Below, piece by piece: positions 8,851-16,575 of a stretch of DNA of 23,098 bases (positions are counted from its first letter, which is position 1; every line of letters starts with the position of its first letter). This stretch comes from a virus. Location: the IMG/VR virus record IMGVR_UViG_3300030104_003549, positions 16,050-39,147 of that record; one strand, given 5' to 3'. The notes beneath the pieces were generated by a model. The model saw only the letters and a list, made by a program, of their open reading frames with translations, did no database searches and was not told where the DNA came from. The position numbers were made by a program, and so were the translations under genes.

Positions 8851-9134
8851 TCTTCTTCACTTCCTATAAATACCCACTTCTTTTTCATGGTTCTATCCGT
8901 ATAAGTCCATACATGATTCTTATGAAACTCATCCAAGTCTTTATCTCGTTGAGTTCTTTTAGACCAAGTTACTCCCTTAGTTTTTCTTTCGTTCTTATCA
9001 TTAGGATGATTAGATACATGACGTTGGGTTCTTTCAGTAACAGTTAAATCACCTTTTGGGAATGCTATTTCTTTTCGCTTATATGCCCAAGAATGGCCGC
9101 CTTTAATAGTTCTAAAATTCTGTTTAGTATTCAT
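8847..9134 (-). CDS. Basic hypothetical protein
   Basis: A 95-aa, strongly basic, hydrophilic protein (many Lys/Arg/His/Thr, such as 'TERTQRHVSNHPNDKNERKTKG'). The ATG at 9134 overlaps the JAMM gene stop, with AGGAGG 8 nt upstream; a longer reading from 9152 lacks a ribosome site. Composition suggests nucleic-acid binding, but no motif is recognised. Being coupled to the JAMM gene, it is a candidate partner or substrate. Confidence 0.75.
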   Translation of the reverse strand: MNTKQNFRTIKGGHSWAYKRKEIAFPKGDLTVTERTQRHVSNHPNDKNERKTKGVTWSKRTQRDKDLDEFHKNHVWTYTDRTMKKKWVFIGSEEE

Positions 9135-9700
9135 TCCTCTTCCTCCTGACAATTTTCACAAATCCATTCAACAGGAGGTGTTCCTGAATCAGTCCAACAT
9201 GAACATTTTTTTTCATATTGCTGTTGAATATGTTGTTCACCTAAATTACTTTCTTGAATAACTAGAACATTAGGGTCAGTATTCTGCCAAAACCCAAAGT
9301 GTTCATATCCACCAAGCACATATGCTTCTTTCATATTCTTTTGCCAAATATTGACAGTATTCCAATCAGTTCCGCTAAAATAAGCACGACCAAATGGATG
9401 AGTATGAATCCAACATTTAATAGGTAATTTCAATCCAGCAGGTTCTTGCATAAATGCAACAAAACCACTTGAACCTGATGATACAAAACAATTATCGTTA
9501 TCATCAATAACTACTTGAACTTCAAGGTTAGGTAGGATTCTAGTAGACATATCCCAAATAACATTAAAGAAAGCCTGTTGAGCAAAAGGCTCAAGTTGAG
9601 TTTCTTCATTCTCCCATAATTGTCGTCTACCCCAAGTATCTTGAATACTGAATTTTACATAGGCTCGTCTATTCTTCATTTCTTCTTCATATGTTATCAT
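9131..9700 (-). CDS. JAB/JAMM metalloprotease (deubiquitinase-like) with C-terminal zinc knuckle
   Basis: A 189-aa protein. The JAMM zinc-site motif is intact: H99-T-H101-P followed by S109-x-x-D112 (WIHTHPFGRAYFSGTDW). JAMM enzymes cleave isopeptide bonds or C-terminal extensions of ubiquitin-like proteins. The upstream catalytic Glu cannot be assigned safely by eye. A Cys-rich tail (C-S-C at 166-168 and C-E-N-C at 181-184) forms a likely zinc knuckle, then ends in Glu. I chose ATG 9700 because GGTGA is 5 nt upstream; the ATG at 9712 has none. It lies one gene downstream of the E1-like gene, pointing to one Ubl pathway. Alternatives are a tail-assembly peptidase or a CysO/Mec-type thiocarboxylate hydrolase. 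Confidence 0.85.
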   Translation of the reverse strand: MITYEEEMKNRRAYVKFSIQDTWGRRQLWENEETQLEPFAQQAFFNVIWDMSTRILPNLEVQVVIDDNDNCFVSSGSSGFVAFMQEPAGLKLPIKCWIHTHPFGRAYFSGTDWNTVNIWQKNMKEAYVLGGYEHFGFWQNTDPNVLVIQESNLGEQHIQQQYEKKCSCWTDSGTPPVEWICENCQEEEE

Positions 9701-10433
9701 TATATTCACCATTTAGTTTATCTAATTTCTTTTGTAGTTTAGCCGCTTTCTTTAGTTTACGACGTTCTCTCCATGAGAGCCTTTCCTTTCGGGCTTCTGC
9801 AATCTTTTCAGATGTAAGTCTATCTACTTCGATAGTATATTTTTCAAACTTCTTAGTCCAAGAATGATTTATGTTTTCGATTTCTCTAGTTAGAGTAACA
9901 CATTTTGCTTCTAGCAAAGAGTTCTTAGTTCTAAGAATCTTAATATCTTCTTTCTTTTGTTCTAGTAATTGAGCAACCTTATCAGCCGCTAATTTTAGAT
10001 TAGATTTCTTTCTATCAACAGAGTTTAACTGTTGCTTCAAGGCATTTTGCTTGAAAGAAAATCCTTTTGTATAAAATCTATTCTTTACTCCTGCTAAAGA
10101 CCTGCCCATTTCTTTAGATGCTCTTTCTAACTCATCTAAAGAAGATATTTCGCTAAGGTAGTTATCTTCATTCTTAGTCCATCTTTTTGCAGAATAGCCT
10201 GTTTTTCTAGCCTTTCTAGTCTTAACTGGCTTCTTAATTGTAACCTTCCTAGTATTCTTCTTTAGTGGTTGTTTAAGAACATTCTTTCTTAAAGAAACAA
10301 CCATAGCATATATGGATTGGTATGTTCTATCTTCTCCAAACTTAGTGTGAAATCTCTTCACAATTTGTTTAGGCTTCTTATTCAAGTGCATTGTTAAAAA
10401 TGCTTTTTCTTCTGTTGTCCATTTCTTGTTCAT
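9687..10433 (-). CDS. Double Myb/SANT DNA-binding protein with long coiled coil
   Basis: A 248-aa basic protein. The first Myb/SANT-like unit starts near residue 4 (KWTTEEKAFLTMHL...) and ends in 'YQSIYAMVVSLRK'. The second starts near 85 (RWTKNEDNYLSEI...) and ends in 'SLAGVKNRFYTKGF'. Between them is a Lys/Arg-rich linker (KNTRKVTIKKPVKTRKARK). From about 130 on there is a long coiled coil (KVAQLLEQKKEDIKILRTKN...), then a basic end 'WRERRKLKKAAK'. This suggests a dimeric DNA-binding regulator or packaging protein. I use ATG 10433 because AGGAG lies 9 nt upstream; the ATG at 10442 is directly against that site. It lies between the E1 and JAMM genes. Confidence 0.75.
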   Translation of the reverse strand: MNKKWTTEEKAFLTMHLNKKPKQIVKRFHTKFGEDRTYQSIYAMVVSLRKNVLKQPLKKNTRKVTIKKPVKTRKARKTGYSAKRWTKNEDNYLSEISSLDELERASKEMGRSLAGVKNRFYTKGFSFKQNALKQQLNSVDRKKSNLKLAADKVAQLLEQKKEDIKILRTKNSLLEAKCVTLTREIENINHSWTKKFEKYTIEVDRLTSEKIAEARKERLSWRERRKLKKAAKLQKKLDKLNGEYNDNI

Positions 10434-10446
10434 ATTTTTCATCTCC

Positions 10447-11004
10447 TTATAGATTAATCATCATAAAATCCTTTAGTTCTTCATCATTGAAGAATTTTTG
10501 CGCCCATTGTGCGCCCATTCCTGCGATTGCAATTTGTAGGAATTGCACGTTTTTATTCGTTCCATCCCAACTATCTCCTTGACAACTGTAACTTCTGTTA
10601 TCTCCTGCAAGTAATGTATCATACATCTTTGGGTCGGAAAGGCTTGAAATAAAAGCGGCGTTTCTACCCTGCGCTCGGAGGTCAAGCCATTTAATACTTG
10701 TGTTGTATAACGTGCGTCTTACTCCCAAGTTATCTACACAGCACATAACTAGGTCAAAACCTTGCATCTGTTTCTCTGTCAATATAGGATATTGACTCGC
10801 AAAATGCACTGATGTATATTCATCTCTCATAACCATCGCTTTGTTTTGCCCAACGTGTCCTTTCTTAAAGTTTTGATAAGTTAAGTTCTTATCCTCAACT
10901 GTATCGGGGTCTGCTACTGTTATGTGATATAAACCAACTTTGTCTAAAAACTGAATCAAAAATGACCCAATTCCACCTGCTCCAATTACTAATACTTTTC
11001 TCAT
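10447..11004 (-). CDS. E1-like/ThiF-family Ubl-activating enzyme
   Basis: A 185-aa Rossmann enzyme expected to adenylate the C-terminal Gly of a ubiquitin-like protein. It shows GAGGIG (residues 8-13), the acidic ribose site ADPDTVEDKNLTYQNF (31-46, with the family N40 and Q44), K55 in 'GQNKA', and the Mg-site Asp in CCVDN (D91). C141 in 'SYSCQGDS' is the best candidate catalytic Cys. No CxxC zinc pairs as in MoeB/UbaA are visible, and the length (UbaA/MoeB are about 250-270 aa) indicates a minimal E1. The ATG overlaps the upstream zinc-ribbon stop (ATGA). Alternative: a ThiF/MoeB-type sulfur-transfer enzyme; the JAMM and Ubl in the window favour conjugation or Ubl processing. Confidence 0.85.
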   Translation of the reverse strand: MRKVLVIGAGGIGSFLIQFLDKVGLYHITVADPDTVEDKNLTYQNFKKGHVGQNKAMVMRDEYTSVHFASQYPILTEKQMQGFDLVMCCVDNLGVRRTLYNTSIKWLDLRAQGRNAAFISSLSDPKMYDTLLAGDNRSYSCQGDSWDGTNKNVQFLQIAIAGMGAQWAQKFFNDEELKDFMMINL

Positions 11005-11162
11005 TCTAATCCACCTTCTCTAACAAACTGAATAAAATCCATTCCATATTCTTTATTACATTCTATACATTTACAATTTGTATCTGTTGGTTTCCAATGC
11101 ACTAATGAATAACTTCTGCATTCTAAACATTGTACGTCGTTAATTGCTTTATCTTTTCTCAT
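11001..11162 (-). CDS. Small zinc-ribbon protein
   Basis: A 53-aa ORF between TFB and the E1-like gene. It has C-L-E-C at 12-15 and a second cluster C30-K-C-I-E-C35, a rubredoxin-like or ribbon knuckle. GGAG lies 8 nt before its ATG, it starts 2 nt after the TFB stop, and its stop overlaps the E1 start. It ends R-E-G-G-L-E; a C-terminal GG is noted, but the body is a zinc finger, not a beta-grasp. Confidence 0.7.
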   Translation of the reverse strand: MRKDKAINDVQCLECRSYSLVHWKPTDTNCKCIECNKEYGMDFIQFVREGGLE

Positions 11163-11164
11163 AT

Positions 11165-12004
11165 TTATTTCTCCATTAAGTTATTTACTTCTTTTCCTTT
11201 AACTTCTTTAACTGATGTTTTGCCAATCAGTTGCAGAATTGATTTTGTTTGTTTATAGATATTTTTTCTCTGAAAAGACGTAGCACTTGCTACGTTCTCA
11301 GCAGTTATCTTATAACAATGCATATTTATTGCTATCCAGCAAATGCTTGCATTGTAGCATCTTCCTTTATTGAATGTAGTTTCAATGAGTAAACTCTCAA
11401 AGAAATCATATACCTTTTCACATCGTGCTTGAAATAGCGGTTCTTCTGAAATTAAAGCAGTTGTTTTGCTAAATTCAAACCTATGGTTTGAAAAGGCTGT
11501 TTGTCTTAAAGACTTTGTAATTCTATTAACAACCTTTCTTACCTTTTTAGGATTACAAGAAAATTCAGAACTAACTTCTTTATACGACAAAGGAGTACCA
11601 TTTTCTCTAAGAACATAGCATACTACTGCTGATGCCCTGACTTCAAGAGAATCTCCAGTATTAAAGAAGCCTTTTCGATACAAGGAAAGATACAGTTCTT
11701 CTGTTCTGTATTTAAGAGAAATAAAACTAAACTTAGATAGAATCATATTACAATGAGTAAGTGCATTCTGTACTGTTCTAGGAATAAGATTATCGGTATT
11801 CCATTTATTAAATTTGTGAGAACCTTTTCCTGTGATTATGGAACCTAGTCTATTATCTGGGCTTCTTTGTGGAGTTCCTTCTACATAAGAAACTCCTTCA
11901 TCGAAAGCGTCATAAATCATGACTAATCCACAACTAGTGCAGACCTTTTCTCCTAATCTTTCATCAAATTTAAATTCCCTTTCTCCGCATTCTTCACATT
12001 TCAT
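11165..12004 (-). CDS. tfb: Transcription factor B (TFIIB homologue)
   Basis: A 279-aa archaeal-type TFB, which bridges TATA-bound TBP and RNA polymerase. The N-terminal zinc ribbon has C3-E-E-C6 and C22-T-S-C25. The B-reader/linker follows (TPQRSPDNRLGSIITGKG, 44-61). Two cyclin-like repeats come next, the first around 'SLEVRASAVVCYVLRENGTPLSYKEVS' and the second around 'NASICWIAINMHCYKITAENVASATS'. At 279 aa it is a little short (cellular TFB about 300). I use ATG 12004 because GGAGA is 8 nt upstream; a TTG at 12019 is also open. It overlaps the upstream gene by 11 nt. It probably redirects host RNA polymerase to viral promoters such as the TATA box at 16299-16306. Confidence 0.9.
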   Translation of the reverse strand: MKCEECGEREFKFDERLGEKVCTSCGLVMIYDAFDEGVSYVEGTPQRSPDNRLGSIITGKGSHKFNKWNTDNLIPRTVQNALTHCNMILSKFSFISLKYRTEELYLSLYRKGFFNTGDSLEVRASAVVCYVLRENGTPLSYKEVSSEFSCNPKKVRKVVNRITKSLRQTAFSNHRFEFSKTTALISEEPLFQARCEKVYDFFESLLIETTFNKGRCYNASICWIAINMHCYKITAENVASATSFQRKNIYKQTKSILQLIGKTSVKEVKGKEVNNLMEK

Positions 12005-13259
12005 TATTATTCTCTCCAAGAAGTCTTGTTATTTCTTCATTTTTATTATATTTAGCATCAGCATCAGAATAGATATAGTTTCTGATGGTGTGAACTAAAC
12101 TAAGTAACATTTCATCATTCATCGTGCAAAGAATCCTAGCAACATATTGGTCGCCTAATGAAGAACCCGTTGCTAAATTATCAATACAAATCGGCCCACG
12201 CCATTCTGGAGCAGATAACAAAAGATATTGTGAATCAGTTTCAGGATTTATGATTGGTTTGTTATTTCCATCATATGCTCTAACTTTAGCAGGTTGCCAA
12301 ATTTGTACGCTAACTTTCTGTAAATCAGAACTATTTCTTTTATCTGTAATTTTCCAATCGTATAGTTTGCCTCTTACGAAGATATGAGTTATCTCTCCTT
12401 CATCATCATAAACCGCAACAATTCTCTTTTTGTATTTTTCAAGAGTTTCTTGAAGAAGTTGTTGCGCTCTTCTCTCGACAATATCTCCAGTTCTATTCTG
12501 TTGTAGAAACTCTTTCATGAGTTTTAATTCTGCTTCAGAAGGAGTTCTACCTATTAATCTTTCATATAGGTTACTGGGCGTTAGGTTCTTCCAACTGCCT
12601 CTAGAATGACCATGCCTATATGTATTACAGAAAGTATTCAAATCATCTTTTGATATTTCTCCCCAAATACCATCACTAAGTTCTAGTGCGTAAGTATCTA
12701 AACCTATTTGATTAACATTAAGTCTAACCTCAATCTTACTATATCTCCCTTCTCTTTCATAGAAATGATAAGGAACTTTATTTTCTAAAACATAGTGTAT
12801 ATTTTCAGGAGTATCTAAGTATTCATTCAAAGCACTAAACAGTTTCATTATGTTGCTCTCATTTATACTCATAATCGCTAATTTAGCCAATGCTCCACAA
12901 ACAGTATCTAGTGTAGTATAGTGGCCGTTAATGTTTATTCTTCCCTTAGACTTTTCTATACTAATCGGCATTCCACTAATAGTTAGTTGAACATTGAAAT
13001 CACTAGAATCAGGATTAGACTTAAAAGAAGGATTATGCCTACTATAATATCTACTACTTCTTCTTCTCTTCACTAAATTTCTTTTAAAGTAATCCTTAGT
13101 TGCAGAGAAGATGGGATTTGTCGAATTATGTCGATAATTATGCCAATCAATATTACAATGTGCTTCAACATAATAAGTTTCAGACAATATATCAATTTTA
13201 ACAATGTCCCTTGTTTGGCTGTCATCAGCCCTGTTTATTCTTAATTCTACTTCTGTCAT
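11994..13259 (-). CDS. Hypothetical 421-aa protein
   Basis: A large unknown protein at the head of the TFB-E1-JAMM gene run. Residues 1-60 include a beta-rich start. Residues 60-80 are very basic (KRRRSSRYYSRH). Residues about 85-200 look alpha/beta (QLTISGMPISIEKSKGRINI...). Residues 240-280 are helical. Residues 285-395 form a beta-rich C-terminal domain with 'APEWRGPICIDNLATGSSLGD' (350-370, split here by C358). The 'G-x-I-C-I-D' around C358 superficially resembles the active-site strand of E2 ubiquitin-conjugating enzymes, but the E2 HPN motif is missing, so I do not assign it. The ribosome site is weak. No family recognised. Confidence 0.85.
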   Translation of the reverse strand: MTEVELRINRADDSQTRDIVKIDILSETYYVEAHCNIDWHNYRHNSTNPIFSATKDYFKRNLVKRRRSSRYYSRHNPSFKSNPDSSDFNVQLTISGMPISIEKSKGRININGHYTTLDTVCGALAKLAIMSINESNIMKLFSALNEYLDTPENIHYVLENKVPYHFYEREGRYSKIEVRLNVNQIGLDTYALELSDGIWGEISKDDLNTFCNTYRHGHSRGSWKNLTPSNLYERLIGRTPSEAELKLMKEFLQQNRTGDIVERRAQQLLQETLEKYKKRIVAVYDDEGEITHIFVRGKLYDWKITDKRNSSDLQKVSVQIWQPAKVRAYDGNNKPIINPETDSQYLLLSAPEWRGPICIDNLATGSSLGDQYVARILCTMNDEMLLSLVHTIRNYIYSDADAKYNKNEEITRLLGENNNEM

Positions 13260-15986: not shown

Positions 15987-16026
15987 AAAAAAAGGGAGAG
16001 CCAAGACTATTAGCCCCGACTCTCCC
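15987..16026 (-). terminator. Hairpin plus T-run terminator after the Ubl gene
   Basis: Inverted repeat GGGAGAG (15994-16000) and CTCTCCC (16020-16026), 7 bp with a 19-nt loop. On the minus strand it is followed at once by seven Ts (15987-15993). It lies 31 nt downstream of the Ubl stop and before the 124-aa gene, so it should end or attenuate the Ubl transcript. Some read-through could feed the reductase genes. Confidence 0.7.
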
Positions 16027-16057: not shown

Positions 16058-16264
16058 CTAAAGTTTTCCTCCAACGATTGCTGGACTGAGGGTTACTGCC
16101 TCAATGTCATCCCATGCAATTTCGGAGATTTGCTCTCTTGATGTCAATTCACCATCAATAAACACCCAATGCGTAGGGTGCGTGTTGATTTGTTCTATTA
16201 CTTCTTCCGCACTAAGCGCAAGTTCCGTGTGGCCTGTTTCATTCATAATTGTTAAGTTTATCAT
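16058..16264 (-). CDS. Ubiquitin-like beta-grasp protein with C-terminal GG-KL
   Basis: A 68-aa protein. The pattern fits a beta-grasp Ubl (SAMP/MoaD/ThiS size): strands at 2-7 (INLTIM) and 13-17, a helix at 18-28 (SAEEVIEQINT), a strand 'WVFIDGEL' (33-40), a short helix, and a last strand 'IEAVTLSPAIV' leading to G65-G66. Two residues (K-L) follow the diglycine, so trimming would be needed, as for SUMO/NEDD8 or some bacterial Ubls. The start ATG 16264 has AGGTGA 5 nt upstream; a longer frame to 16315 lacks such a site and would include the promoter. It is flanked by its own TATA box and terminator. The E1-like and JAMM genes lie 5-7 kb away. The fold is assigned by eye; a MoaD/ThiS sulfur carrier is the main alternative. 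Confidence 0.75.
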   Translation of the reverse strand: MINLTIMNETGHTELALSAEEVIEQINTHPTHWVFIDGELTSREQISEIAWDDIEAVTLSPAIVGGKL

Positions 16265-16317: not shown

Positions 16318-16575
16318 TTAAGACATATCCTTGTCCATTATCTCATATTGTCGTTGTTCTGTTAGATACGAGTTTAATATCATATCTAGTTTTTCTGGTA
16401 ATGCATCAATAATTCCACATATTAGTTTTCTATTCAAAGAAATCCATATCTTGTGATAAGTATTGATTATTACCTTTGGTTCATCCTTTTCGTTCATAGT
16501 TATTACAATAGGGGGCAATTCTTCATCATCCACTACTCTAAATTCTACTGGTTTTGCTTTTTCTATTACATTCAT
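16318..16575 (-). CDS. Hypothetical protein (85 aa)
   Basis: An 85-aa protein following tRNA-Arg by 22 nt. GGAG lies 8 nt before the ATG. It has a beta-rich middle (PPIVITMNEKDEPKVIINTYHKIWISLN) and a helical end. The motif is not recognised. It ends 12 nt before the Ubl TATA box, marking the boundary of the upstream transcript. Confidence 0.7.
   Translation of the reverse strand: MNVIEKAKPVEFRVVDDEELPPIVITMNEKDEPKVIINTYHKIWISLNRKLICGIIDALPEKLDMILNSYLTEQRQYEIMDKDMS

Follow-up and report, generated by a model that had tools for sequence, protein, structure and literature searches.

The gene block and its viral source

The window considered here, that is, the whole analysed stretch of 23,098 bases out of the 39,147-base virus record IMGVR_UViG_3300030104_003549, carries four genes on its minus strand, namely those of a ubiquitin-like (Ubl) protein precursor (68 aa; 16058..16264), an E1-like adenylating enzyme of the ThiF fold (185 aa; 10447..11004), a candidate E2 (421 aa; 11994..13259), and a JAMM/JAB metalloprotease (193 aa; 9131..9712), the latter being a candidate maturase and isopeptidase. 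They are located in a replication/RNR/GroEL block, and the window also encodes a TFB-type zinc ribbon, a clamp-loader-like AAA protein, an ATP-dependent DNA ligase, GroEL, a GroES-like ORF, and a class II RNR, with one tRNA-Arg(TCT) and a GC content of about 33%. The gene content, GC and tRNA match the description of the magroviruses of marine archaea (PMC10768690, PMC5628999), and the window derives from a magrovirus, a tailed virus of the Magrovirales. The Magrovirales are tied to the Marine Group II/Poseidoniales archaea in the same works, from which the host is taken here. A bacterial host, as it could be deduced from the matches in an Altibacter MAG, was rejected, these matches being read as mis-binned viral contigs; thus, the contigs of the loci L082 and L083 (NZTP01000030.1 and NZTP01000027.1) come from magroviruses and were apparently placed by mistake in the genome bin of an 'Altibacter sp.'.

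The presence of the four genes was counted over the distinct loci having enough sequence on both sides, and all four were found in 77 of the 77 E1-anchored and in 69 of the 69 E2-anchored loci, while the records missing one of them were mostly short fragments or ended near the block. Both the candidate E2 gene and the JAMM gene were present in each of the 20 long records of 84-103 kb, the latter gene being split into two pieces in one record. The linkage in a compact block appears, from these gene maps, to be a poor explanation for the co-inheritance by itself, though it could partly contribute, because the distribution of several neighbouring genes in this block is far patchier than that of the four. 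No E3 was identified. The TFB-like protein with its TFIIB zinc ribbon (11165..12019, minus strand), encoded between the candidate E2 and the E1, is a neighbour for which no role in the system is claimed.

The ubiquitin-like protein

The ORF at 16058-16264 of the minus strand is translated as MINLTIMNETGHTELALSAEEVIEQINTHPTHWVFIDGELTSREQISEIAWDDIEAVTLSPAIVGGKL (68 aa), ending with PAIVGG-KL and followed by TAG; thus, the two residues after G65-G66 pointed out in the preliminary description were confirmed by direct translation. The codons of the tail K67-L68 occupy the positions 16061..16066 and those of the diglycine 16067-16072 of the same strand. With the alignment of the first nine sequences as a query, the first scan of the IMG/VR viral contigs for the Ubl gave 174 relatives, of which 80 were kept; the set comprised 76 distinct sequences in IMG/VR and 88 after the wider scans. 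The explanation of the reading frame as a chance ORF was rejected on account of these 88 conserved homologues.

The AF2 model of the Ubl (mean pLDDT 85.7) has the order beta-beta-alpha-beta-beta-alpha-beta, that is, a predicted beta-grasp (ubiquitin) fold, with the disordered C-terminal end, where the residues 66-68 fall below 50. Among the structural matches of this model, the top ones were MoaD (3rpf, Z 5.8), a bacterial Ubl (8tyx, Z 5.5) and SAMP2 in the JAMM1-SAMP2 complex (5lda, Z 5.0), and ThiS was also found, the Z values being modest throughout (5-6). The Pfam family PinA-inhibitor, matched by 31 of 61 Ubl members with 1.4e-4 at best, was set aside, since the predicted fold did not confirm it and, like the GG-E1-JAMM context, points elsewhere. 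In a search of an annotated phage collection, the Ubl and the JAMM had no match and only distant ThiF proteins were retrieved.

Both glycines are invariant, with zero entropy, in all the 88 distinct viral homologues, in which many positions of the body vary. The Ubl bodies are poor in lysine (1.1% against 8.5% in 36 genes of the window): of 86 bodies, 32 contain none and 50 a single one, which is mostly located close to the N-terminus (residue 3). In the mature Ubl of the window, the last basic residue is R43. Such an almost lysine-free modifier would, therefore, disfavour chains and suggests single tags.

The residues beyond the diglycine

The preliminary description had proposed to see by alignment whether a constant GG is followed by a variable tail, and it was found so, the GG being kept in 88 of 88 homologues and the tail varying from 0 to 9 residues. 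Neither a homologue lacking the GG nor a conserved tail embedded in the fold, both of which were sought in the same set, was found. In numbers, the tail consists of two residues in 59 distinct Ubls, of one in 13, of seven in one and of nine in one, so that 74 of the 88 family members, including that of the window, are tailed, while 14 stop exactly at the GG and the tail is hence not general in the family. The first 76 distinct IMG/VR sequences all had the form of GG plus 0-2 residues. The long acidic tails, SCTIDDDDY and SCISDDD, belong to one clade (L275, L279, L284; the Ubl near 2,236-2,729), to which L299 and L292, with the tails SC and SV, are closely related.

The tails change much faster than the proteins that bear them. 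Over 74 close Ubl pairs, the body differs by 10% per residue, and the first and second tail positions by 54% and 30%, respectively; in the loci L011, L012 and L013, the 66-residue bodies are identical and the tails read LY, SY and QY. On the E1 tree of 86 rows, at least 49 changes of tail identity were counted, together with 11 changes of length and 5 of presence/absence. The tail as a component of the fold was rejected, as it is disordered in the model, hypervariable, and missing in 14 members. A stop codon occurs within two codons in 30% of the frames of the 3' flanks, compared to the tails of at most two residues in 86 of 88 Ubls. The tail length looks, accordingly to these sequence counts, constrained rather than set by mere chance stops; this point is not pressed, the relatives being non-independent (about 11 length changes).

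It was proposed in the preliminary description that the tail implies a processing step. In Caldiarchaeum, an Rpn11-type JAMM cuts off a nine-residue tail and the E1 refuses the untrimmed form (PMC5654768). By this analogy, the tail-bearing Ubls would need trimming because the residues past the GG block the activation by other E1s; if the viral E1 behaves like the known ones, this would apply to 74 of the 88 Ubls, the window's included, and not to the remaining 14. The processing is thus favoured for the tailed members, in which the tail lies outside the predicted fold, but it does not extend to the 14 of 88 that end at the GG.

The further statement that a tail is a hallmark of a conjugating Ubl did not stand, its logic being weak. 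As translated, the Ubl of the window ends with GGKL, unlike the sulfur carriers of the ThiS/MoaD type, which end at the GG, with the exception of JAMM-trimmed carriers. In the sulfur carrier QbsE, a dipeptide tail is removed by a JAMM protease. The tail alone cannot separate a conjugating Ubl from a sulfur-carrying one because this carrier exists, as do the operons that join a JAB and an E1 to a ThiS/MoaD-like protein. The latter combination was found in sulfur-metabolism operons by Iyer et al. (PMC1779556).

The E1-like enzyme, the candidate E2 and the JAMM protease

The E1-like protein (10447..11004, minus strand) matches Pfam ThiF with 1.1e-18, and its profile matches include UBA5, the NEDD8 E1, Uba4, and Cap2. 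The motif GxGGIGS is conserved, and the invariant residues are as follows: G8/G10/G11/G13, K55 and D91 of the adenylation site, and C141, located in S-x-S-C-Q. At the position equivalent to Arg73 of MoeB, which is taken from the list of MoeB residues in PMC12355090, there is a Tyr in the motif N-L-x-Y-Q. The enzyme is a bare ThiF domain of 185 aa, in which no CxxC Zn-binding pairs, rhodanese domain or Cys domain were found. The natural candidate for the thioester cysteine, as judged by conservation, would be C141.

The candidate E2 (11994..13259, minus strand) is predicted to have a UBC-like C-terminal domain at the residues ~257-409 (nt 12033-12491), with C358 (nt 12186-12188) in GPICIDN. In its AF2 model (mean pLDDT 86.6), the part past residue 257 follows the order of the UBC fold, i.e., a helix, strands, C358, and three helices, and the 50 best VIA re-alignments are all to E2s, E2-containing complexes or UBC/RWD-type domains (FANCL, BRISC) and fall on the residues 257-409, with Z of only 4.4-6.0 and non-significant Foldseek E values. 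C358 is kept in 95 of the 95 homologues that cover the position, mostly within W-x-G-P-I-C-I-D-N, with such variants as GVCVDN, SICIN and GPVCID, so that the overall context is G-x-I-C-[IV]-D-like. This context resembles the active-site segment G-x-I-C-L-D of E2s, as it reads in three eukaryotic members. The sequence and profile searches of Pfam, PHROG and PDB gave no significant match for the candidate, and its hhalign comparison with three E2s was non-significant (E 0.14-0.25), the only aligned stretch starting at the expected first helix. The HPN motif before C358 is absent among the homologues; the His has also been lost from some bacterial E2 families (PMC1779556). The structure search of BFVD returned three full-length homologues, all of them without annotation. 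The assignment of this gene as an E2 is considered likely on the predicted UBC-like fold and the invariant Cys, the match being structural only, and the E2-like domain, if modelled correctly, would be better evidence for conjugation than the tail. The residues 1-255, which precede the UBC-like domain, are conserved as well, with the invariant D13, P49, E159, N160, D196, G197, and W199, among others.

The JAMM protein (9131..9712, minus strand) has the full motif E-x(n)-H-x-H-x(7)-S-x(2)-D, with E64, H103, H105, S113 and D116 invariant across 44 aligned homologues, and the catalytic motif is intact in every complete homologue. Prok-JAB matches 43 of the 44 members (best E 3.6e-5), the copy of the window being under the curated cut-off. 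The meaningful profile matches in PDB were the JAMMs of the AMSH type; the WD40 matches of the same profile were rejected as spurious sums of many weak matches. In the preliminary description, the JAMM was named as the natural candidate for the protease that removes the tail. This part is retained in so far as an intact JAMM gene travels together with the Ubl and has a precedent in the Caldiarchaeum Rpn11 (PMC5654768), but the gene is also kept in 19 tail-less loci, which makes another job likely. Thus, 19 of 19 loci with a tail-less Ubl retain both an intact E1 and a JAMM with the intact motif H-x-H-P..S..D, and the maturation of the tail seems unlikely to be the sole job of the enzyme. Its second role is likely to be the removal of the Ubl from targets because a pure tail-trimmer should be dispensable where the Ubl has no tail. 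Processing of a precursor by a JAMM is also known for BilC, which acts on BilA (PMC11354881).

Comparison with the known systems

The ubiquitin system of Caldiarchaeum subterraneum (pro-ubiquitin, Rpn11/JAMM, E1, E2, and RING; PMC5654768) has in common with the magrovirus set the archaeal setting, the Ubl precursor with residues past the GG (nine in Caldiarchaeum and 0-9 in magroviruses), and the location of the JAMM, E1 and E2 genes near each other, with the E2 being a candidate in the magrovirus. The exposure of the GG by the JAMM and the failure of the untrimmed form to be activated have been demonstrated in Caldiarchaeum, whereas the magrovirus set is known from sequence and models. The latter set differs by being virus-encoded, by the E1 reduced to a bare ThiF domain with no RING E3 found, by the E2-like domain that follows an N-terminal region of 255 aa and has no HPN, and by the tails, which are mostly of one or two residues and sometimes absent.

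Among the bacterial operons of the types 6a-6e and BilABCD (PMC11354881, PMC1779556), the separate genes for the Ubl, E1, E2 and JAMM are found in Bil and in the type 6d, as in the magrovirus, and the trimming of the BilA precursor by BilC resembles the role proposed here for the viral JAMM (PMC11354881). However, the magrovirus set is carried by a virus and does not belong to host defence; its Ubl is single-domain (68 aa), in contrast to the double-domain one of Bil, its E1 has neither the inactive-active adenylation pseudodimer nor the Cys domain, and the CEHH motif of BilB is missing after C358 of the candidate E2.

The SAMP/E1/JAMM1 set of Euryarchaeota includes, similarly to the magrovirus, a beta-grasp GG modifier, a small non-canonical E1 and a JAMM, with SAMP2 (5lda) matching structurally. 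SAMPs end at the GG and are not known to need an E2, whereas the magrovirus Ubl is tailed in 74 of 88 cases and the E2-like protein is always present. The pair of a Ubl and a JAB from a tailed virus is also known in lambda, namely TAPI and TAPK (JAB/NlpC), which take part in tail assembly (PMC1779556); however, the lambda genes belong to a tail cluster with NlpC and have no E1/E2, while those of the magrovirus lie in the replication/RNR/GroEL block with an E1 and a candidate E2. In the sections of the RaFAH paper covered here (PMC8276007), the MoeB/ThiF gene was listed among the auxiliary genes prevalent in archaeal viruses, a connection with ubiquitination being suggested, and it may include the magrovirus E1; the Ubl, its tail, the JAMM and the E2 are unmentioned in these sections.

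The proposed pathway and its alternatives

The best reading of the block, which is considered probable from the conserved residues and the predicted folds, is a virus-encoded system of Ubl conjugation and deconjugation that is core to the magroviruses. The primary product of the Ubl gene would carry a short dispensable tail, which the virus-encoded JAMM probably trims to expose G66; the E1-like ThiF protein would adenylate G66 and hold the Ubl, probably on C141, from which it would move to C358 of the E2-like protein and become attached to the lysines of targets. The large N-terminal region of the E2-like protein perhaps steers the targeting. The JAMM could also cut the Ubl off the targets again, which would explain the retention of the JAMM in the viruses with the tail-less Ubl.

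An unlikely alternative is a sulfur carrier, where the E1 would adenylate the JAMM-trimmed Ubl and the sulfur on G66 would feed a viral or host thiolation, e.g., of tRNA, with no protein tagging. It would suit the small, single-domain, ThiF-like E1, the MoaD and ThiS among the structural matches of the Ubl, and the trimmed dipeptide tail of QbsE, as well as the sulfur-metabolism operons with a JAB, an E1 and a ThiS/MoaD-like protein (PMC1779556) and the PAPS reductase CysH reported for some magroviruses (PMC10160649). However, this E1 has neither a rhodanese domain nor the Zn-binding Cys pairs of MoeB/ThiF, the JAMM is retained where there is no tail to remove, and the constant presence of a UBC-like protein whose Cys is invariant would be superfluous for sulfur carriers. 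In another explanation, the JAMM would serve only for deconjugation, or would target the Ubl/SAMP conjugates of the host, the tail being trimmed by a host carboxypeptidase or a different protease; this gains from the intact JAMM in all the tail-less viruses and from the tails being mostly just 1-2 residues of varied sequence. It is rated as rather unlikely, since the known JAMM partners process precursors, as do the Caldiarchaeum Rpn11 (PMC5654768) and BilC (PMC11354881), and the 7- and 9-residue acidic tails of one clade suit an endopeptidase better.

It is very improbable that the Ubl is never activated and is a structural or binding protein with an incidental GG-tail: the absence of the MoeB Arg73 equivalent from the E1 would fit such a protein, while the zero entropy of both glycines against the variable tail and many variable body positions, and the strict co-inheritance with the E1, the JAMM and the candidate E2 speak against it.

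As for the conjugation and deconjugation system, it seems somewhat favoured that the magrovirus core set is a complete and self-sufficient Ubl machine, consisting of a pro-Ubl, a JAMM maturase/isopeptidase, a minimal E1, and an E2 not recognised before, whose large N-terminal region possibly handles substrates; during infection, this machine would tag host or viral proteins. The candidate purposes of this tagging are the take-over of the host, the protection from host defence, and virion assembly. In the papers searched, no report on the Ubl, the JAMM or the E2 of a magrovirus was found, and the system is, as far as searchable, an undescribed virus-borne form of the E1-E2-Ubl-JAMM kind. Ubl conjugation in prokaryotes has been described mostly in bacterial operons, part of which serve in the defence against phages, and in a small number of archaeal hosts. 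In the magroviruses, the entire pathway appears to belong to the virus and is inherited as one unit, in a viral group that is abundant in the ocean. If true, the virus would possess a new means of take-over or assembly; with its four proteins, the minimal system could be reconstituted, and it would bear on how ubiquitin systems originated. The natural mix of tailed and tail-less Ubls separates the maturation role of the JAMM from that in deconjugation, both of which are directly testable.

Other features of the block

Adjoining the Ubl gene in the window, an 85-aa protein is encoded at 16318-16575 of the minus strand; it is present in 117 of 138 loci, with about 63% identity, and belongs to no known family. 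Just 3' of the Ubl gene, at 15987-16026, the perfect inverted repeat GGGAGAG/CTCTCCC is followed by a T run on the minus strand and is likely an intrinsic terminator. A zinc-ribbon-like protein of 53 aa (11001-11162, minus strand) overlaps the start of the E1 gene in the window, and only 15 loci have this protein. Two Ubl-E1 blocks of differing sequence, L067 and L075, were found in the single record IMGVR_UViG_3300021958_000021 (184,733 bp), which is probably two joined magrovirus genomes. Several minus-strand proteins of the window, including the JAMM and its homologues, have EEE or EEEE at their C-termini (3' ends at 9131, 8847, 8668, 5498, and 5154), probably because the stop codon overlaps the ribosome-binding site that serves the following gene.
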